Below, piece by piece: positions 54,967-63,950 of a stretch of 64,000 nt of DNA; position 1 is the stretch's first letter; every line of letters begins with the position of its first letter. A model generated the notes under the pieces. That model saw nothing but the letters and a program-made list of their open reading frames with translations, ran no database searches and was not told the origin of the DNA. Made by a program: the position numbers and the translations under genes. Origin of the DNA: an uncultured Roseburia sp. (GTDB taxonomy: Bacteria > Bacillota > Clostridia > Lachnospirales > Lachnospiraceae); NCBI GenBank assembly GCA_945787015.1, contig CALZGM010000012.1:25273-89272 (forward strand), written 5' to 3'.

Positions 54967-55256
54967 AACTTTACCAAATTAAATTAATAAACCCATTTAA
55001 AAGGTAGATTGATAGCGTTATTATCTCTTCAACGAAGAAAAATCGTAGAGATTAGTTGGAGGTAAAACCATGACTACCTATTTTGTAAAACTTAGAAATT
55101 AAATCATGTGTTGTTGTCGAATGCAGTACTCCTGGGCAGATTATGTGGCCGGATGCTTTGACGCGCACTGTTTGCATCCGTATAGATACGCGTAGTATAT
55201 AAGTGAATTGCCATTTGCCCGGGAGCTGTCAAAGAAGCCCCCGTTTTTTTTTTTTT
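54967..55256 (+). repeat. 290-bp attenuator-like leader, decayed copy 1
   Basis: This is collinear without gaps through at least 180 bases with 56808-57091. It keeps the ribosome binding site, leader ORF start (ATG 55070), Cys codon triplet, antiterminator arms and a terminator with about 13 T residues. The -35 is degraded (TTTAAA for TTGACA), and the leader peptide stops after 10 codons (AAT TAA where copy 2 has AAC AAA). It fills most of the 466-base gap between brnA and the ATPase gene. Confidence 0.85.
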
Positions 55257-55371: not shown

Positions 55372-56802
55372 ATGATAGGCAGAAAAAGAGAAATAAATGA
55401 ACTGAATAATTTATATAGTAGCAACAAATCGGAACTTGTAGCTATCTATGGAAGAAGACGTATTGGGAAGACATATTTAGTGGATGAAACATTTAAAGGA
55501 CGTATTACATTTAGACATGCAGGACTTTCTCCGGTAGATGAGAATAAAAAAGGTATGTTAAAGGCACAGCTTGAACATTTTTATTATTCTTTGTTACTTC
55601 AGGGCATGAAGAAAAGTAAAAAACCGGAAAGTTGGTTAGAAGCATTTTATATGCTGGAGAAGTTATTGGAAGAAATGGATGATGGAAGCAGACAGTTGAT
55701 TTTTTTAGATGAACTACCTTGGATGGACACGCCAAGGTCTGGATTTATGACAGCATTCGAAGGCTTTTGGAATACATGGGGATGTCATAGAAATAATTTA
55801 ATGGTTGTAGTTTGTGGAAGCGCTAATTCATGGATACTGGATAACTTAATTAATAATCATGGTGGATTATATAATAGGGTTACCTACGAAATGAAACTAT
55901 CACCATTTACGCTGAACGAATGTGAGAAGTTCTATGCGAATAATAACGTCAAGCTTTCAAAATATGATATTGTGCAGAGCTATATGATTCTGGGTGGAAT
56001 TCCATATTATATGGGATATTTTCAAAGCGGAATGAGCTTAGCTCAAAACATAGATAACCTCTTTTTTTCAAAACAGGGAAAGCTTAAAGATGAGTACAAC
56101 AGATTGTTTGCGTCCATTTTCAGCAATCCCGAAGTGATGAAAAAAATCGTTGATTTGTTATATACAAGAAATGCAGGGTTTACCCGAAGCGAAATCGTAG
56201 AAAATGTTGGTATCAATGATGGAGGAACATTATCAGGGAGCCTGAATGCGCTTATTGCCAGTGATTTTGTTATAAAATATGTTCCTTTTGGTAAGGGTAA
56301 AAAAGAACATTATAAAATAGTTGATCCATTTTGTATGTTTTATCTCCATTTTGTAGATAAGAAAAAGAAACTGGAAGATAATTTCTGGCAGCAAAATGTA
56401 TCATCACAACAGATTGTAAGCTGGAGAGGATATGCATATGAGAATGTTTGTTTTAATCATGTACAACAGATAAAGAAAGCGCTTGGAATTAGTGGTGTTA
56501 TCACAACACATTCAGCTTGGTCTAAAAGAAGTGACGATATGGAGGGAACACAGATTGACCTGTTAATTTCGCGTAATGATAATATTGTAAATATGTGTGA
56601 AATCAAGTATTATGGAGACAAATTTACCGTTAGCAAGGATTATTATCAGGTATTATTACATCGGCAGGATATTTTGTCGAAAGAGATATCGCCAAAGATT
56701 TCAATTCATAATACATTAATTACAACTTTTGGATTAGTTTATAACGAATATAGTGGAATATTTTCAAATGTGATAACATTGGAGGATTTGTTTGCAGAGT
56801 AG
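55372..56802 (+). CDS. archaeal-type ATPase with C-terminal DUF234/PD-(D/E)XK domain
   Basis: This encodes 476 residues. Walker A is YGRRRIGKT (about 27-35) and Walker B LIFLDELPW (about 106-114), the pattern of Pfam ATPase_2. A winged-helix region follows (RNAGFTRSEIVENVGI, about 265-280), and the C-terminal DUF234 domain has QIDLLI with Asp396 and CEIKYY with Glu410-Ile-Lys412, a full PD-(D/E)XK nuclease motif. AAAGGGAG precedes ATG. The gene with its own promoter is the only content between two copies of a 290-bp leader, as if it had been inserted with duplication. The family is frequent in gut Clostridia; its function is not established. A defence or mobile-element role is possible. Confidence 0.85.
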   Translation: MIGRKREINELNNLYSSNKSELVAIYGRRRIGKTYLVDETFKGRITFRHAGLSPVDENKKGMLKAQLEHFYYSLLLQGMKKSKKPESWLEAFYMLEKLLEEMDDGSRQLIFLDELPWMDTPRSGFMTAFEGFWNTWGCHRNNLMVVVCGSANSWILDNLINNHGGLYNRVTYEMKLSPFTLNECEKFYANNNVKLSKYDIVQSYMILGGIPYYMGYFQSGMSLAQNIDNLFFSKQGKLKDEYNRLFASIFSNPEVMKKIVDLLYTRNAGFTRSEIVENVGINDGGTLSGSLNALIASDFVIKYVPFGKGKKEHYKIVDPFCMFYLHFVDKKKKLEDNFWQQNVSSQQIVSWRGYAYENVCFNHVQQIKKALGISGVITTHSAWSKRSDDMEGTQIDLLISRNDNIVNMCEIKYYGDKFTVSKDYYQVLLHRQDILSKEISPKISIHNTLITTFGLVYNEYSGIFSNVITLEDLFAE

Positions 56803-56836
56803 AGCGTAACTTTACCAAATTAAATCAATAAACCTA

Positions 56837-56865
56837 TTGACAAGGTAGGTTGATAGTGCTATTAT
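56837..56865 (+). promoter_or_regulatory. consensus promoter of the metY/ABC operon leader
   Basis: TTGACA (56837-56842), 17 bases, TATTAT (56860-56865). The -35 is perfect here, whereas copy 1 has TTTAAA. Confidence 0.8.
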
Positions 56866-56910
56866 CTCTTCAACGAAGAAAAATCGTAGAGATTAGTTGG
56901 AGGTAAAAAC

Positions 56911-57036
56911 ATGACTACCTATTTTGCAAAGCATAGAAACAAAATCATGTGTTGTTGTCGAATGCAGTACTCCTGGGCAGATTTTATGGCCGGATGCTTT
57001 GACGCGCACTGTTTGCATCCGTATAGATACTTGTAG
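56911..57036 (+). CDS. Cys-rich leader peptide (41 residues)
   Basis: The ribosome binding site TTGGAGG precedes ATG 56911; the frame ends at TAG 57034. The peptide contains MCCCRM, with Cys codons 14-16 (56950-56958), two further Cys and several Met and His. Substitutions against copy 1 after the triplet are mostly conservative (DFMAG against DYVAG), which supports translation. It should sense charged tRNA-Cys by ribosome stalling. Confidence 0.7.
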   Translation: MTTYFAKHRNKIMCCCRMQYSWADFMAGCFDAHCLHPYRYL

Positions 57037-57056
57037 TATATAAGTAAATTGCCATT

Positions 57057-57091
57057 TGCCCGGGAGCTGTCAAAGAAGCCCCGGTTTTTTT
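57057..57091 (+). terminator. attenuator terminator of the cysteine leader
   Basis: CCGGGAGCT pairs with AGCCCCGG (one mismatch), followed by seven T residues. Its 5' arm TGCCCGGGAG (57057-57066) is also complementary over 10 bases, with one G-T, to CTCCTGGGCA (56970-56979) just after the Cys codons: an alternative antiterminator. Confidence 0.7.
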
Positions 57092-57175
57092 ATGCTTTTT
57101 TACAAGAACCGGAACAAACTACATACACAAAATACATAAAAACGAAAATAGAAAAAAGGAAAAGAGGAAAAAATT

Positions 57176-58340
57176 ATGAGCGATTACAGATTTGAAACAC
57201 TTCAGTTACACGTAGGACAGGAACAGCCGGACCCGGCAACCGATGCAAGAGCTGTACCGATTTATCAGACCACTTCTTATGTATTCCGTGACTCTGCACA
57301 TGCAGCAGCACGTTTTGACCTGGCTGATGCAGGAAATATTTACGGCAGATTGACCAATACCACACAGGATGTGTTAGAAAAACGAATTGCAGCATTAGAA
57401 GGCGGTGTGGCTGCACTTGCACTTGCATCCGGTGCAGCGGCAATTGCTTACACGGTACAGGCATTAGCGGAGGCCGGCGAGCATATAGTAGCACAGAAAA
57501 CCATTTATGGTGGAAGCTATAACTTACTGGCACATACACTTCCGCGTCAGGGAATTACCACTACTTTCGTGGATGCACATAATTTAGAGGAAGTGGAAGG
57601 AGCTATTCAGGAAAATACAAAAGCCATTTATTTGGAGACTTTGGGAAATCCAAACAGTGATATTCCGGATATTGATGCAATTGCAGAAATTGCACATAAG
57701 CATGGACTACCGCTTGTCATTGACAATACGTTTGGAACACCGTATCTGATTCGTCCGATTGAACATGGTGCAGATATCGTGGTTCATTCTGCAACAAAGT
57801 TTATCGGAGGTCATGGAACGACTCTTGGCGGCATCATTGTGGATTCCGGAAAGTTTGACTGGAAAGCAAGCGGAAGATATCCGGCAATTTCCGAAGCAAA
57901 CCCGAGCTATCATGGCGTATCCTTTGTGGATTCAGCAGGACCGTCACGCAGAGAATACAAAGAAAGTCGTAGAATATCTCACCAAGCATCCGCTGGTAGA
58001 GCATGTGAACCATCCGTCTCTGCCGGAGCATCCGGACCATGCACTTTATGAAAAATATTTCCCGAATGGCGGTGCAAGTATCTTTACCTTTGAGATTAAG
58101 GGTGGACAAAAGGAGGCACATGCGTTTATTGACCATTTAGAGCTTTTCTCACTTCTTGCAAATGTGGCAGATGTCAAGAGTCTGGTCATTCACCCGGCGA
58201 CTACGACACATTCCCAGTTGTCCGAAGAAGAGCTTGCTGACCAGGGTATTAAGCAAAACACCATTCGCTTATCCATCGGTACAGAACATATTGATGACAT
58301 TATCGAAGATTTGGAGCGAGGTTTTGCAGCTTTAAAATAA
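57176..58340 (+). pseudogene. metY: O-acetylhomoserine sulfhydrylase gene with internal out-of-frame deletion
   Basis: ATG 57176 starts [20 protein letters not shown], and the frame is a good Cys/Met-metabolism PLP enzyme ([23 protein letters not shown] lysine in [12 protein letters not shown]) up to [13 protein letters not shown] near 57940. There it jumps out of frame and ends at 58051. The correct C-terminus continues in the +1 frame ([40 protein letters not shown]) to TAA 58340. About 39 residues that normally lie between these parts are missing, so a deletion of roughly 115-120 bases is likely. Full-length relatives have about 425-430 residues. The enzyme would make homocysteine from O-acetylhomoserine and sulfide; this allele should be inactive. 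Confidence 0.85.
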
Positions 58341-58348
58341 AATAAGAA

Positions 58349-59026
58349 ATGAAGGAGGAAACAGTTACGGACTGGTTATTTATGGAACAATATTTGCCCC
58401 TGTATCAGAAAGCGGCAGTCTTAACAATACGCTTAGGAATACTGGGAATTGTTTTCTCCATCCTCATAGGGCTGATTTGTTCCTTTGTATTATACTATCA
58501 GATACCAATCATAAAAAGAATCGTAGCAATCTATATTGAAATCAGTAGAAACACACCATTGCTGGTGCAGCTGTTTTTTATCTATTATGGGCTTCCGAAA
58601 ATAGGAATCCCTACGAATGCAGAAATCTGTGGTATTGCAGGACTTTCTTTTCTGGGCGGAAGCTACATGACAGAAGCCTTTCGAAGCGGCCTTGAAGCAG
58701 TAGATAAGGTGCAGTTGGAAAGTGCAGAAAGTCTTGGAATGAATCGTTTTCAGACCATGCGTTATGTGATACTGCCACAGGCGGTTTCCATCAGTATTCC
58801 GGCATTCATGGCAAATGTGATATTTCTGCTGAAGGAAACAAGCGTCTTTAGTGCCATCAGCCTGATGGATTTGATGTTTACAGCAAAAGATCTGATTGGC
58901 TTATATTATAAGACGACGGAAAGTCTATTCCTTTTGGTGGTATTTTATCTGATTATTTTACTGCCAATTTCAATCATTGGCAGTTTGCTGGAAAGGCGGG
59001 TACGATATGCCGGATTTGGGGATTGA
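58349..59026 (+). CDS. polar amino acid ABC transporter permease (cystine-type), first subunit
   Basis: This encodes up to 225 residues with about five membrane helices; the permease signature EAFRSGLEAVDKVQLESAES and LGMNRFQTMRYVILPQA fits the His/Gln/Glu/cystine family. The start is odd: ATG 58349 overlaps its own AAGGAGG and has no ribosome binding site, whereas ACG 58367 is placed ideally (9 bases after AAGGAGG) and gives the family-like N-terminus DWLFMEQYLPLYQKAA. ACG may be a mutated ATG or a weak start. Two permeases, an ATPase and a binding protein follow one another. The Cys leader upstream points to cystine as substrate. Confidence 0.88.
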   Translation: MKEETVTDWLFMEQYLPLYQKAAVLTIRLGILGIVFSILIGLICSFVLYYQIPIIKRIVAIYIEISRNTPLLVQLFFIYYGLPKIGIPTNAEICGIAGLSFLGGSYMTEAFRSGLEAVDKVQLESAESLGMNRFQTMRYVILPQAVSISIPAFMANVIFLLKETSVFSAISLMDLMFTAKDLIGLYYKTTESLFLLVVFYLIILLPISIIGSLLERRVRYAGFGD

Positions 59027-59681
59027 AGTATTACTGAAAGGAAACAACCTGATGCGGCTCCTCGCCGGATTAGGAGTGGCACTAAAAATCAGCCTGATTG
59101 CAATTGGGCTAAGTATTCCATTAGGAATTCTGATTGGAATGCTTGTAAACGGGAAGAATCCCATTATAAAAGGAATCTACAGGGTGTATTTAGAATTCAT
59201 TCGGATTATGCCGCAGTTGGTTTTACTGTTTCTTGTTTACTTTGGAACGACAAGAGCTTTTGGCTGGGATTTATCCGGAGAGACGGCATCTGTTTTTGTA
59301 TTTACACTGTGGGGAACAGCGGAAATGAGTGATTTGGTAAGAGGTGCACTCATCAGTATTCCGAAGCATCAGTATGAAAGCAGTGCAGCATTGGGATTAA
59401 ACAGGAGTCAGACCTATTTTTACGTGATTATTCCACAGACGGTGAGAAGACTGCTTCCGCTGTCAATCAATCTAATCACACGTATGATAAAAACCACAAG
59501 CCTGATTTTGATGATTGGGGTTGTAGAGGTGTTAAAGGTAGCACAGCAGATAATTGAAGCAAACCGGATGTCGAGTCCGAATGCAGCGTTTGGAATTTAT
59601 TTAACCGTATTTTTCCTGTACTTTATCGCCTGCTGGCCAATCAGCCGACTGGCGGCTTATTTGGAAAAGAAGTGGAGGTGA
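59007..59681 (+). CDS. polar amino acid ABC transporter permease, second subunit
   Basis: This encodes 224 residues from ATG 59007, overlapping the first permease gene by 20 bases. Five membrane helices are visible, with the family motif [20 protein letters not shown] and [20 protein letters not shown], which forms the coupling helix that docks on the ATPase. It should pair with the first permease as a heterodimer. A longer frame from TTG 58977 lies wholly inside the preceding gene and is not needed. Its stop is beside the ATPase start. Confidence 0.92.
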
Positions 59682-59686
59682 GCTTT

Positions 59687-60433
59687 TTGGCAGAAGAATT
59701 ACTTACAATTGACCATTTGACAAAACAGTATGGAGAAAATGTCATTTTAAATGATGTGAGTCTGACGGTTCACAAGGGCGAAGTTGTCGTTGTGGTTGGC
59801 TCCAGTGGCTGTGGAAAGAGTACCCTGCTTCGATGTATCAATGCATTAGAATCCATACAGGGTGGAGAGATTTGTCTTCAGGGCGAAAAAATAGAGCAGG
59901 AGGGCAAAAATATCACAGCACTCCGTCAAAAAATCGGTATGGTTTTTCAATGCTATGAGCTGTTTCCACATCTGACCGTACTGAATAATATATTACTGGC
60001 ACCGGTAAAGGTACAGAAAAGGAGAGAGGAAGAAGTAAAGGCGGAAGCGTTTGAACTTTTAAAGCGTGTGGGCTTGGAGGACAAAGCAGACAGCTATCCG
60101 AGACAGCTTTCCGGCGGACAGAAGCAGCGAATCGCGATTGTTCGTGCACTGTGTATGCATCCGGATATTTTGTTATTTGACGAAGTGACCGCTGCACTGG
60201 ACCCTGAAATGGTCCGTGAGGTATTGGATGTGATTTTAGAACTGGCCGAACAGGGACGCACGATGATTATCGTGACACACGAGATGCAGTTTGCAAAAGC
60301 CGTGGCTGACCGGATTATTTTTATCGATGACGGAAAAATCATTGAGAATTCCAAACCGGAACAGTTTTTCTCACATCCGGAAACGGAGCGGGCAAAGCAG
60401 TTTTTAAATATGTTTGAATATAAAAGGAAATAA
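59687..60433 (+). CDS. polar amino acid ABC transporter ATPase
   Basis: This encodes 248 residues from TTG 59687, 6-8 bases after GGAGGTG; a GTG at 59672 lies within that site region. Walker A is GSSGCGKST, the Q-loop [14 protein letters not shown], the signature LSGGQKQR, Walker [15 protein letters not shown] and the H-loop VTHEMQFA. It is the GlnQ/TcyC type of ATPase. Note Cys in the Q-loop, where the family usually has a hydrophobic or polar residue. It follows the permeases closely in one operon. Confidence 0.95.
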
Positions 60434-60453: not shown

Positions 60454-61314
60454 ATGAAGAAGAGATTAGGAAAAAGATTGGCAGCAGCATTGATGATGGG
60501 TTTTACTTTTTTAACAGCAGCATGCGGCAGTAAGGGAACGGGTGCATCCGGCAACGGGACGGTTTATCGGAGCTTAGACGAAATCAAAGAGAGCGGCGTC
60601 ATCAATATTGGTGTATTTTCCGATAAAAATCCGTTTGGATATGTAGATGAAAACGGTGAATATCAGGGCTATGATGTTTACTTTGCAAACCGCATCGGAG
60701 AAGATTTGGGCGTTGAAATTAATTACGTGTCTACGGAAGCAGCAAATCGTATCGAGTACTTACAGACCGGAAAGGTAGACATTATTCTTGCCAACTTTAC
60801 TGTGACAGAGGAACGTGCCGAAGAAGTGGATTTTGCATTACCATACATGAATGTTGCTTTGGGCGTGGTATCAAAGGATGACCATGTGATTGAAAGCCTG
60901 GATGACATCGGAGCAGATGAGGAAATTATTGTCATTTCCGGAACAACCGCAGAAACTTATCTTGTAAAAAATTATCCGGATATCAAGCTTCAGAAATATG
61001 ATTCCTATGCAAATGCGAAGAATGCATTTGAAAACGGAAACGGAGTTGCCTGGGCAAATGATAACACAGAGGTCATTGCATTTGCACTGCAGAATGCCGG
61101 CTATACGGTAGGAATTCCGTCTCTTGGAAGTCAGGATACCATTGCACCGGCTGTATCAAAAGGAAATGAGAGTTTATTGAATTGGCTCAATGAGGAAATC
61201 AAAGCTTTGGGAGTGGATCAGTTTTTCCATGAGGCTTATGAAGCAACATTGGCAGATACCTATGGACTTGACTATGAAGAAAGTCTGGTTGTAGAAGGCG
61301 GAGTTGTAAAATAA
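60454..61314 (+). CDS. amino acid ABC transporter substrate-binding lipoprotein
   Basis: This encodes 286 residues. The signal peptide ends in the lipobox LTAAC (Cys near residue 24), so the protein is membrane-anchored outside the cell. The family 3 solute-binding fold is shown by GVINIGVFSDKNPFGYVDEN, GEYQGYDVYFANRI, ANFTVTEERAEEVDFALPYM and ISGTTAETYLVKNYP. The substrate is a polar amino acid; the cysteine leader before the operon suggests cystine or a related sulfur compound. AGAGGAGAG precedes ATG. A terminator follows. Confidence 0.93.
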   Translation: MKKRLGKRLAAALMMGFTFLTAACGSKGTGASGNGTVYRSLDEIKESGVINIGVFSDKNPFGYVDENGEYQGYDVYFANRIGEDLGVEINYVSTEAANRIEYLQTGKVDIILANFTVTEERAEEVDFALPYMNVALGVVSKDDHVIESLDDIGADEEIIVISGTTAETYLVKNYPDIKLQKYDSYANAKNAFENGNGVAWANDNTEVIAFALQNAGYTVGIPSLGSQDTIAPAVSKGNESLLNWLNEEIKALGVDQFFHEAYEATLADTYGLDYEESLVVEGGVVK

Positions 61315-61384: not shown

Positions 61385-62455
61385 ATGAAAGCACTGATAG
61401 CGATGAGCGGTGGCGTTGACAGTAGTGTTGCTGCGAAGCTGATGATAGAGGAAGGATATGAGTGCGTAGGATGTACGATGAAATTATTTCACAATGAGGA
61501 TGCGGGAATTCCGAAAGAGCACAGCTGCTGCTCTCTGGATGATGTAGAGGATGCCCGCATGGTAGCTTATTCACTGGGCATGCCGCATTATGTGTTTAAT
61601 TTCAGCGAGGATTTTAAGGAAAAGATTATTGAAAAATTTGTATGCAGTTATGAAGCGGGACTCACACCGAATCCCTGCATTGACTGTAACCGGTACATGA
61701 AATTTGACAAGCTTTACGAGCGGGCGAAGTTACTAAACTGTGACTATGTCGTGACCGGTCACTATGCCAGAATTGAGTATGATACTGATACTGAAAAATA
61801 TTTACTGAAAAAAGCAGTGGATGATACGAAGGATCAGAGCTATGTGCTCTATACCATGACGCAGGAACAGTTAGCACATACGAAGTATCCTCTGGGAGGA
61901 TTGACCAAAGTAGAAACCCGCGCAATCGCAGAGAAAAATTGATTTGTGAACGCACATAAGGCAGACAGTCAGGATATCTGCTTTGTACCAAAAGGGGATT
62001 ATGCAGCAGTCATTGAGCAGCATCGGGGGACACCATGTGAGGAAGGAAATTTCGTAGATAAAGACGGTAAGGTATTAGGAAGACATAAGGGAATTATCCG
62101 TTATACGATTGGACAGCGTAAAAATCTGGGGATTTCTTTTACAAAGCCGATGTATGTGTGTGAAATCCGCCCGGAAGATAATACCGTAGTGTTAGGAGAA
62201 GCAGAGGATTTGTTTTCCACGGAGATGGACGTAAGTGACGTCAACTGGATTTCCGGAACTGCACCGACGGAGCCTTTTCGCTGCAAGGTAAAGATTCGTT
62301 ATCGAAAGCCCGAGGAATGGGCAATGGTCATACCGCTTTCCAGTCAGAAAATCCATGTCGTATTTGATGAAACGCAGCGTGCGATTACCCCGGGACAGGC
62401 AGCAGTACTGTATGATGGAGACGTGGTGCTGGGCGGAGGTGTGATAGAGAGATAG
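61385..62455 (+). pseudogene. mnmA: tRNA 2-thiouridylase gene interrupted by one in-frame TGA
   Basis: The frame from ATG 61385 (GGGAGG upstream) encodes MnmA: the PP-loop AMSGGVDSSVAAKLMIEEGY, the catalytic Cys in NPCIDCNRYMKF and DQSYVLYTMTQEQL. At 61940-61942 a TGA follows AEKN, and the same frame then continues with FVNAHKADSQDICFVPKGDY (second catalytic Cys) to a normal C-terminus at 62455. The TGA stands where the family has Gly, so a single GGA to TGA change explains it. Without it the protein would be 356 residues, the usual length. MnmA thiolates U34 of Lys, Glu and Gln tRNAs. Translation could restart at GTG 61946, but would lack the PP-loop. Confidence 0.9.
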
Positions 62456-62570: not shown

Positions 62571-63950
62571 ATGGTATTTTATGGACGAGAGCGTCAAAAG
62601 AAAATTTTATTGGATATGATAAAAAAAGATGGGCAGGCGATTTCTCTCATATATGGCAGACGTCGTATTGGCAAAAGTGAGTTGATAAAGCAGTCCTTAA
62701 AAGAATCCGATGTGCCAAGTATTTATTATGAATGCAAGCAGACAACGGAACGCAATAATGTAGATAGCCTTGCTGAAATCGTTGGAGATACATTTGAATT
62801 TCCAAAGCCTTCCTTTTCCGATATGGAAGAATTGCTAAATTTTGTTTTTAAAAAAGCAGAGGCCATGTCACTAGTTCTTGTATTTGATGAGTACCCATAT
62901 TTACGAGAAAATGTGAAAGGACTTGATAGCATAATTCAGTCGCTCATAGATAAATATAAAGACACTTCCCATATAAAGTTTATTTTGTGCGGTTCGTATG
63001 TTGATACCATGAAGGAACTCCTGGCAAAACAAAACCCGTTGTATGGAAGAATTGATTTGACCATTGATCTAAAACCGATGGATTACTTTGAGTCAGCATT
63101 GTTTTACCAGAATTTTTCTGATGAAGATAAAGTAAGGCTTTACAGCGTATTTGGAGGAATCCCGTATTATAACCGGCTGATTGATGCTGGAAAAAGTGTG
63201 AGGGAAAACATCATTGATTTGATTGCTTCTCCCGGAGCCAGACTGGAAAATGAAGTTTCTATGTATTTAAGCTCAGAGATATCTAAAATAACAAATGCGA
63301 ATGAAATTTTTGAGGCATTGGCAAAGGGATTTTCAAAGTATAAAGATATTCTCGACCAGTCAAACGTCTCAAGTGGACCAACGCTTGTTGATGTGCTTGA
63401 TAAATTAATAAAGATGGATGTTGTAAAAAAGGAAGCACCAATTAATGATGAGAATAATAAAAAGAAAGCCGGTTACTTTATATCCGATAATCTGTCTTTG
63501 TTTTACTATAAATACATTTTTAGAAATATATCTAGAATGAATATCATGAATCCGGAAATTTTTTATGATAAGTATATTGATGAAGATTTTGAAACAAAGC
63601 ATGTACCTAAGGTTTTTGAAGAGATATGTAAACAGTATCTTATCAGACAAAACAGAGAAGGATTGCTAGAGGAACCTTTTGAAAAGATTGGCAAGTATTA
63701 TTATGATGTCCCCGTCCATAAGAAAAATGGGGAATTTGATATTGTTACATTAGATGACAACGGATATATTTTTTATGATGCAAAGTTTCGTAAAGAGCCG
63801 ATAACGGAATCTATGGTGAGAGAGGAAATACTGCAGGTAATAGAAACAGGACTTTTCTGTTATAAGTATGGCTTTATCGCTAGAGCAGGCTTTGACTGCG
63901 ATGTAGCGGACGACAGAGTATTAATTTCTTTAAGTGAAATGTATCAATAG
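62571..63950 (+). CDS. archaeal-type ATPase with DUF234/PD-(D/E)XK domain (second in window)
   Basis: This encodes 459 residues. Walker A is YGRRRIGKS (about 28-36) and Walker B LVLVFDEYPYL (about 100-110). A helical middle region contains YSVFGGIPYYNRL, found in both ATPases of this type in the window. The C-terminal nuclease-like domain has EFDIV (Asp390) and FYDAKF (Asp403-Ala-Lys405), a D...D-x-K variant of the PD-(D/E)XK motif. GGGAGG precedes ATG 62571. It has its own promoter and no coupled partner. The role of these proteins is unknown; the one at 55372 is a divergent relative rather than a recent duplicate. Confidence 0.85.
   Translation: MVFYGRERQKKILLDMIKKDGQAISLIYGRRRIGKSELIKQSLKESDVPSIYYECKQTTERNNVDSLAEIVGDTFEFPKPSFSDMEELLNFVFKKAEAMSLVLVFDEYPYLRENVKGLDSIIQSLIDKYKDTSHIKFILCGSYVDTMKELLAKQNPLYGRIDLTIDLKPMDYFESALFYQNFSDEDKVRLYSVFGGIPYYNRLIDAGKSVRENIIDLIASPGARLENEVSMYLSSEISKITNANEIFEALAKGFSKYKDILDQSNVSSGPTLVDVLDKLIKMDVVKKEAPINDENNKKKAGYFISDNLSLFYYKYIFRNISRMNIMNPEIFYDKYIDEDFETKHVPKVFEEICKQYLIRQNREGLLEEPFEKIGKYYYDVPVHKKNGEFDIVTLDDNGYIFYDAKFRKEPITESMVREEILQVIETGLFCYKYGFIARAGFDCDVADDRVLISLSEMYQ

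Follow-up and report, generated by a model that had tools for sequence, protein, structure and literature searches.

The leader at 56808-57175 of the window (the whole 64,000-nt stretch of DNA analysed here) lies upstream of a metY gene and a set of ABC transporter genes, and raises the question of how these genes are controlled. A sequence-only reading had proposed a cysteine attenuator, composed of a promoter, a Shine-Dalgarno sequence, a leader ORF, two pairing arms and a terminator. Each of these parts was found in its place, base-exact, and the TGT TGT TGT claimed for the 41-codon ORF can be read directly at 56950-56958. The features that we recognize at the locus are as follows.

54967-55250, + strand: decayed second copy of the leader, without a -35 box and with a stop after ORF codon 10
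56833-56849, + strand: putative palindromic operator CCTATTGACAAGGTAGG over the -35 box, of the Rrf2/CymR-IscR type
56837-56865, + strand: promoter; -35 TTGACA (56837-56842), 17-nt spacer, -10 TATTAT (56860-56865), TG before the -10
56899-56903, + strand: Shine-Dalgarno GGAGG of the leader ORF, from sequence
56911-57036, + strand: leader peptide ORF MTTYFAKHRNKIMCCCRMQYSWADFMAGCFDAHCLHPYRYL; ATG at 56911, 41 codons
56950-56958, + strand: control codons TGT TGT TGT (three Cys), from sequence
56957-57003, + strand: likely protector hairpin, 56957-56979 with 56987-57003; from nascent-RNA fold and family tests
56970-56981, + strand: antiterminator 5' arm, from fold and covariation
56987-56990, + strand: 5' strand (TGGC) of the second antiterminator helix, partner 57051-57054
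57055-57066, + strand: antiterminator 3' arm, from fold and covariation
57060-57091, + strand: intrinsic terminator; stem 57060-57084, then T7
57176-58340, + strand: metY (O-acetylhomoserine sulfhydrylase), with an internal frameshifting deletion near 57940
58349-59026 and 58977-59681, + strand: two amino-acid-type ABC permease genes
59672-60433, + strand: polar amino-acid/cystine-type ABC ATPase, under the curated cut-offs for a named substrate
60454-61314, + strand: family 3 substrate-binding protein, cystine-like, under the curated cut-offs for a named substrate

Genes behind the leader and state of the locus

The targets proposed for the leader, metY and the transporter, do lie downstream of it, but metY is frameshifted in this genome. 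It lacks about 119 nt relative to G048, the closest genome found that shares the leader and in which metY is open, and the break falls at a short repeat, at about 57938-57943; the deletion is either real or an assembly fault. Contig C13 of the same genome carries another MetY-like gene, with 42% identity, which is open. Because of the frameshifting deletion in metY, the working targets here are probably the transporter genes, which the leader could still serve.

Positions 54967-55250 and 56808-57091 form a 284-bp direct repeat, 93% identical, flanking an ATPase_2 gene (55372-56802). In the upstream copy the -35 box is lost and the ORF stops early, so that this copy resembles a dead leader left behind by insertion or duplication. 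Further downstream, mnmA (tRNA 2-thiouridine synthase) is split by an in-frame TGA (61940-61942) into frames 61385-61942 and 61946-62455, and a second ATPase_2/DUF234 gene, at 62571-63950, lies near the first.

Distribution of the leader family

DNA similarity within the genus gave a single strong match besides the own genome, in G048, and three short weak ones; with so few matches, we relied on peptide, pattern and covariance-model searches. The peptide search returned hits in 183 of 397 genomes at E ≤ 1, almost all of them by chance, and seven of the 29 foreign loci fetched from it were leaders by eye. Its relatives have in common ATG-TGT-TGT-TGT-CGA-ATG, then TCC CGG GCA and then ATG GCY GG.

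Scanning named genomes with the 18-base core retrieved at least 117 loci, and 85 of the 117 listed were retained as leaders of the same design, through a filter that combines antiterminator score and U-rich tail, so that this core set is partly selected on structure. Excluded from the core were L046, L073 and L112, cut by contig ends, and L088, where operator and peptide are present and the antiterminator was not found. A further 28 loci (actinobacterial leaders and chance matches) were set aside, one of which, L060, had passed the filter and was removed by eye, and L104, L124, L126 and L127, which failed the automatic filter, were reinstated for carrying the operator. Because structure already entered into this selection, a fair measure is given by the loci chosen solely by the presence of CCTATTGA upstream: among the listed scan matches, 64 of the 68 measurable ones pass the antiterminator and U-tail filter. 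Host labels, given for 57 of the 85 core loci, comprise 36 Lachnospiraceae, 17 other Clostridia, one Phascolarctobacterium and three named only as Firmicutes or bacterium; named hosts include Clostridium porci, C. fessum, Eubacterium ruminantium, Faecalibacterium prausnitzii and Massilioclostridium coli.

With stricter filters, at which weak matches are lost, a covariance model matched 8 of 62 genomes in the genus (E ≤ 0.1, the two weakest doubtful), 57 of 397 in the family (E ≤ 0.01), 13 of 391 in the class and 5 of 398 in the phylum (both at E ≤ 0.001), the own genome being included in each count. The model found no match in 340 of the 397 family genomes and 54 of the 62 genus genomes, and this patchy distribution suggests that gain, loss or transfer is frequent. 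We used 76 of 85 model matches, after dropping antisense overlaps, a second copy, a 50-nt match and the decayed copy of the window; the weakest (L163, L222, L228, L230 and L231) are possibly chance or partial matches. The scan and model sets overlap, and their 162 entries correspond to 149 distinct leaders.

The search for homologous leaders before Cys/Met genes, proposed in the sequence-only reading as a check, thus brought out a recurring family. Naming downstream gene clusters from their representatives, 125 of the 149 distinct leaders precede Cys/Met PLP enzymes (77), binding proteins of family 3 and/or MetQ type (34), permeases (5), ABC ATPases (5) or CysK (4). Core leaders, in particular, precede metY, cystathionine gamma-synthase/lyase, cysK, cystine/methionine-type ABC transporters, MetN-like ATPases, M20 peptidases and a few others. 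Given the recurring family and the covariation described below, the leader is, on sequence comparison, more than a chance arrangement. Cys codons, their frame, antiterminator, terminator and sulfur-gene context recur jointly in relatives, which supports its reading as a cysteine attenuator.

Seven loci (L055, L060, L065, L106, L117, L120 and L128) appear to be of another type, with ATGTGTTGTTGTCGAATG and a stop after 7-9 codons shortly upstream of metY. Among the five other than L120 and L128, every informative label is actinobacterial. Save in L060, where the filter accepted one, no terminator resembling that of the Clostridia leaders was detected in the seven, and they look like the known actinobacterial type of Cys leader.

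Cys codons and translation of the leader

We examined the reading frame of the Cys run in the 133 distinct leaders that have CGAATG and sufficient upstream sequence. If the start must lie upstream of the core, the Cys frame has a start and a Shine-Dalgarno-like motif leading into the run in 130 of them, versus 11 and 1 for the other frames; when the core's own ATG is permitted as start, the counts are 130, 11 and 10. CGAATG is retained in 62 of the 76 leaders found with the model, and the run of these 62 contains 120 TGT, 15 TGC, 7 TGG and 22 ATG codons, with UGU preferred over UGC; no Cys was counted immediately 5' of CGA in 9 of the 62. Cys codons, in varying number, are present in almost all covariance-model matches, although the model was built from Cys-codon leaders and therefore favours them.

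Trp or Met codons are interspersed in some model matches, as in MCCRM, MCWRM, MWCCRM and MCMCRM. TGG and ATG within the Cys run were listed for 22 of the 62 leaders, including L168, L169, L177, L186, L229, L158, L189, L191 and L195, and might reflect drift or the sensing of more than one amino acid.

The front edge of a ribosome stalled on the Cys codons, given its footprint, is expected about 11 nt downstream, and in 59 of 86 leaders the antiterminator 5' arm begins pairing exactly 11 nt past the last Cys codon.

Towards the end of the ORF, a second conserved hexamer, CGATGT (Arg-Cys), occurs at +45 to +125 from the core ATG in 56 of the 149 distinct leaders, with 3.3 expected; 49 of these are in frame within the ORF, frequently close to the stop. 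Likewise, Cys is among the last three codons in 66 of the 149 leader ORFs.

Antiterminator and terminator

The sequence-only reading had CTCCTGGGCA (56970-56979) pair with TGCCCGGGAG (57057-57066), and this was borne out: segment 56968-57070 folds as the antiterminator at -41.1 kcal/mol (z -4.63), a stability equalled in 0 of 200 shuffles, and the pairing covaries in relatives. The terminator segment (57050-57095, with the stem at 57060-57084 and T7) folds at -14.3 kcal/mol, equalled in 9 of 200 shuffles; a simple terminator scan of the window leader called no terminator, and the stem carries a bulge. The terminator reuses the 3' arm, as had been claimed, with 57060-57066 common to the antiterminator 3' arm and the terminator 5' strand, and the two structures are mutually exclusive.

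For the covariation analyses, alignment A1 was made without structure and contains 71 of 86 leaders, kept after removal at 88% identity, whereas A2 was fitted to the model, with class-level matches added and the weakest ones excluded. As RNAalifold gave just 6 pairs on A1, structures were drawn up manually from individual folds, and their pairs were then counted. Antiterminator pairs form in 87.0% of A1 cells, compared with 22.6-48.2% when slid, and double changes occur in 67 cells (reached by 0 of 500 shuffles) and in 11 of the 15 pairs (reached by 5 of 500). All five pairs of the second antiterminator helix show changes on both sides. In A2 (87 model matches), double changes affect 15 of 15 pairs and 91 cells, this alignment having been fitted to that same structure.

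With a permissive detector, a terminator hairpin with a T-rich tail, in some cases weak, was found in 84 of 86 core leaders and not in L039 and L069; this count is partly preselected, because the U-rich tail was a selection rule for most core leaders. In the comparison as a whole, the leader ORF, its Cys codons, the antiterminator, the terminator, the gene context and a conserved palindrome (see below) all emerge as shared features of the sequences. Compared with the best fold, the terminator state is less favourable by a median of 2.1 kcal/mol (84 leaders), and by 6.4 kcal/mol in the window, where the antiterminator is favoured by that amount at equilibrium. These costs suggest a switch that is near balance in the family and leans to readthrough at equilibrium in the window.

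A likely protector hairpin

The two-arm model of the sequence-only reading holds in that both arms are kept and covary, but it misses a further, likely structure, a protector hairpin. The last Cys codon plus CGA AUG is able to pair with a downstream GCGUUCGA-like stretch; the protector 5' strand comprises the end of that codon and CGA AUG, and the inner stem takes up most of the antiterminator 5' arm. Nascent RNA of the window folds as the protector at -20.5 kcal/mol when ending at 57030, and as the protector plus a second hairpin at -25.1 kcal/mol when ending at 57050; the protector fold extends outward to 56940/57015.

Across the core set, with near copies retained, at least five of the eight core bases are paired in 47 of 85 nascent folds, versus 22.6 expected with shuffled downstream sequence, and the protector pairing is not reached in 38 of 85. 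Helix scores average 14.8 versus 11.0 when shuffled, and in this comparison 34 of 86 leaders fall below 0.05. In A2, and with shuffles that ignore relatedness, protector pairs form in 73.8% of cells, compared with 36.8-48.0% when slid (3 of 500 shuffles as high), the covariation score is 0.168 versus 0.147 ± 0.007 (0 of 500 shuffles) and there are 24 pair types versus 18.6 (6 of 500); double-change cells (19 versus 13.5; 42 of 500 shuffles) and pairs with a double change (8 versus 6.5; 104 of 500) are not clearly unusual. A1 showed no protector covariation, because the scan pattern fixed the 5' strand. Own partners scored 15.6 and swapped ones 14.9 in 161 leaders, a weak test in which some leaders, such as L208, were mis-segmented; compensatory changes can be seen by eye in, for example, L160, L168, L191, L206 and L208.

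When the terminator is forced, the best fold of the window lacks the protector, and the 5' arm pairs with 56941-56954 and elsewhere. Together with the equilibrium preference for the antiterminator, this implies that termination must rest on folding kinetics and on a moving ribosome. A ribosome at the stop codon would not be a general mask of the 5' arm, because stop positions vary, and could not be one in the window, where the stop falls inside the antiterminator loop; since variable stops leave the arm unmasked, a protector would be needed. The hairpin, in which the last Cys codon would be held, would also explain the conserved UGUCGAAUG. The sequence comparisons thus make it likely that the protector is real, at a grade below that of the antiterminator, terminator and ORF.

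A palindrome over the -35 box

Around the -35 box, 137 of 161 leaders agree with CCTATTGACATAGTAGG at 12 or more of its 17 positions, and the family consensus has a TATAAT-like -10 box 17 nt past the -35, as in the window promoter. Pattern CCTATTGACNNNNTAGG occurs 26 times in the 12 relatives searched, spread over 11 genomes; among 11 of these 26 sites that we inspected, two had a Cys leader (L243 and L257) and nine had none. Leaderless sites precede Rrf2-like regulator genes (L244 and L250), named by eye from sequence, and, also by eye, genes for a SufC-like ATPase, a thioredoxin and MalY-like, cysteine-desulfurase-like, cystathionine-synthase-like, MetN-like and pyridoxal-kinase-like products. 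In the own genome the palindrome appears once at one mismatch or fewer, namely at this leader, and the one clear Rrf2 gene, which follows cysteine-desulfurase-like and IscU-like genes, has no palindrome.

The palindrome fits a candidate operator of an Rrf2 (CymR/IscR) regulon in Lachnospiraceae, to which a protein of this family would presumably bind, and its position over the -35 box suggests a double control, at the DNA and RNA levels. The palindrome is also shared by a different Cys leader, at L257:1501-1760, which encodes MCMCMMCCC mainly with TGC codons and has its own terminator-like hairpin upstream of a cystine-type binding protein gene.

Proposed mechanism and alternatives

We consider it highly likely that the leader acts as a classical ribosome-mediated transcription attenuator for cysteine, with a likely protector and a probable Rrf2-family repressor. 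Very probably, this Cys-codon RNA leader would serve gut Clostridia to turn on sulfur amino acid genes when Cys-tRNA runs short. With ample Cys-tRNA, the ribosome would clear the three Cys codons and the protector hairpin would re-form behind it; in a leader that escaped translation altogether, the hairpin would form as well. The protector would sequester the antiterminator 5' arm, leaving the 3' arm to enter the terminator, and transcription would end upstream of metY and the transporter genes. With scarce Cys-tRNA, we infer that the ribosome would stall at 56950-56958 and cover the protector 5' strand; the freed 5' arm, whose first paired base is 11 nt past the last Cys codon, would pair with 57055-57066, and the resulting antiterminator would block the terminator and allow transcription of the operon in response to cysteine shortage. 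An Rrf2 (CymR/IscR) family repressor would probably act additionally at the -35 palindrome.

Other explanations were weighed against this one. The leader is strongly structured and conserved, as would be expected of a riboswitch for a metabolite or a tRNA (S-box, Cys T-box or an aptamer of unknown kind) with an incidental ORF, and such genes are under Cys T-boxes in C. perfringens, according to the available text of PMC2940859. We nonetheless regard a riboswitch as extremely unlikely: there is no Rfam family match in the window or in eight loci of relatives, 130 of 133 leaders have a Shine-Dalgarno motif and a start that open the Cys frame, almost all matches have Cys codons, and the 11 T-box matches of the own genome are all on other contigs. 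The T-box (RF00230), the S-box and other Rfam riboswitches were dropped as candidates because no Rfam model matched these sequences. It is very unlikely that MCCCRM itself matters, through nascent-peptide arrest or as a functional small peptide, for instance in thiol or metal sensing. MCCCRM is indeed the single near-invariant stretch, though one demanded by the scan pattern, but the N-terminus, length and C-terminus of the peptide all vary across the family, with the stop codon 48-135 nt past the core in 86 leaders; besides, the conserved SRA and MAG residues overlap the RNA arms, and matches without CGA (MCCCM, MCCLM and MCMCM) retain their Cys codons.

A repressor at the -35 palindrome could be the sole control, with a small effect of the leader, and this would agree with the 137 of 161 leaders that carry the palindrome and with its presence without a leader at nine of the 11 inspected sites of relatives. 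A covarying antiterminator and a terminator would, however, hardly be retained if unused, and we give this explanation next to no probability. An attenuator of two states, in which the antiterminator is blocked not by a protector but simply by fast coupling or by a ribosome positioned at the stop codon, is in our view unlikely. The modest support for the protector speaks in its favour; against it, stops are spread over 87 nt, that of the window lies inside the antiterminator loop, and such a model would offer no explanation for the conserved UGUCGAAUG or for the UUCGA-like stretch downstream. We therefore favour the attenuator with a protector.

More tentatively, as something conceivable rather than probable, these leaders could form a patchy and perhaps mobile family of Cys attenuators across several families of the phylum, which may take the role that the Cys T-box has in Clostridium. 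Every leader might then be doubly gated, by an Rrf2 repressor at the -35 box responding to a cysteine or Fe-S signal and by a ribosome responding to Cys-tRNA, and the CGA UGU near the stop might be a further checkpoint.

Comparison with known systems

The sequence-only reading had called classical attenuation for cysteine rarely described in Clostridia, and the open-access literature that we searched yielded no account of a leader-peptide attenuator for Cys in that class. As far as that literature reaches, and with no Rfam match, this is a new family of an already known kind of switch. For the Lachnospiraceae, which are common in the gut and rumen, it provides a cysteine switch that is concrete and can be tested, and the covariance model could serve to annotate the family in further genomes and to help assign sulfur functions to transporters, peptidases and other downstream genes.

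Polycysteine leaderless ORFs are reportedly cysteine-responsive in mycobacteria, going by the title of Canestrari et al. 2020. Actinobacterial polycysteine leader ORFs occur before cys genes and, in the available text of PMC1262725, have no conserved terminator hairpin in Mycobacterium, where Rho was suggested. What they share with the Clostridia leaders is a short ORF with consecutive Cys codons ahead of cys genes, but the Clostridia leaders have a Shine-Dalgarno sequence and an intrinsic terminator. Closer in design is the uORFC-8-2 motif, a predicted Cys attenuator upstream of cysS in Rhodobacterales, likewise with a short ORF, tandem Cys codons within a stem, two prominent stems, a 3' U-run and an intrinsic terminator (PMC8632094, available part). 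Unlike the leaders described here, it belongs to Alphaproteobacteria, is positioned upstream of cysS, is dominated by UGC and is a prediction only, and the part of that source at hand mentions no Rrf2-like operator of the kind proposed here. cysS was not among the representative downstream proteins scanned behind Clostridia-type leaders, and no host label shown for core leaders among the listed scan matches is of Rhodobacterales.

Leader-peptide attenuation is known from other Firmicutes. His leader peptides precede hisS/hisZ in Bacilli, where they replace a T-box, and were in 2010 described as new outside Proteobacteria and Actinobacteria except for ermC (PMC2965389, from the text available); S. 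aureus reportedly has a leucine-rich attenuator (PMC5794164). Both differ from the present family in amino acid, genes and lineage.

With regard to cysteine, the portion of PMC3828012 available to us describes Rrf2-family control of cysteine genes in the CymR regulon of Firmicutes, with CymR and IscR motifs reportedly alike; CymR acts at the DNA level, whereas here such control would be joined with an RNA attenuator. The Cys T-boxes of Clostridium also cause premature termination, before cysK, cystine transport and related genes, and also sense the charging of tRNA-Cys, but they do so by direct tRNA-RNA binding, with a TGC specifier and without a control ORF (PMC2940859, as far as its available text goes), and no Rfam T-box match was found in the window leader or in the relatives' loci scanned. 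The same 2010 study of C. perfringens, in its available text, took clostridial cys genes that lack a T-box as a hint at other control mechanisms (PMC2940859), and the leader family is a candidate for such a mechanism.
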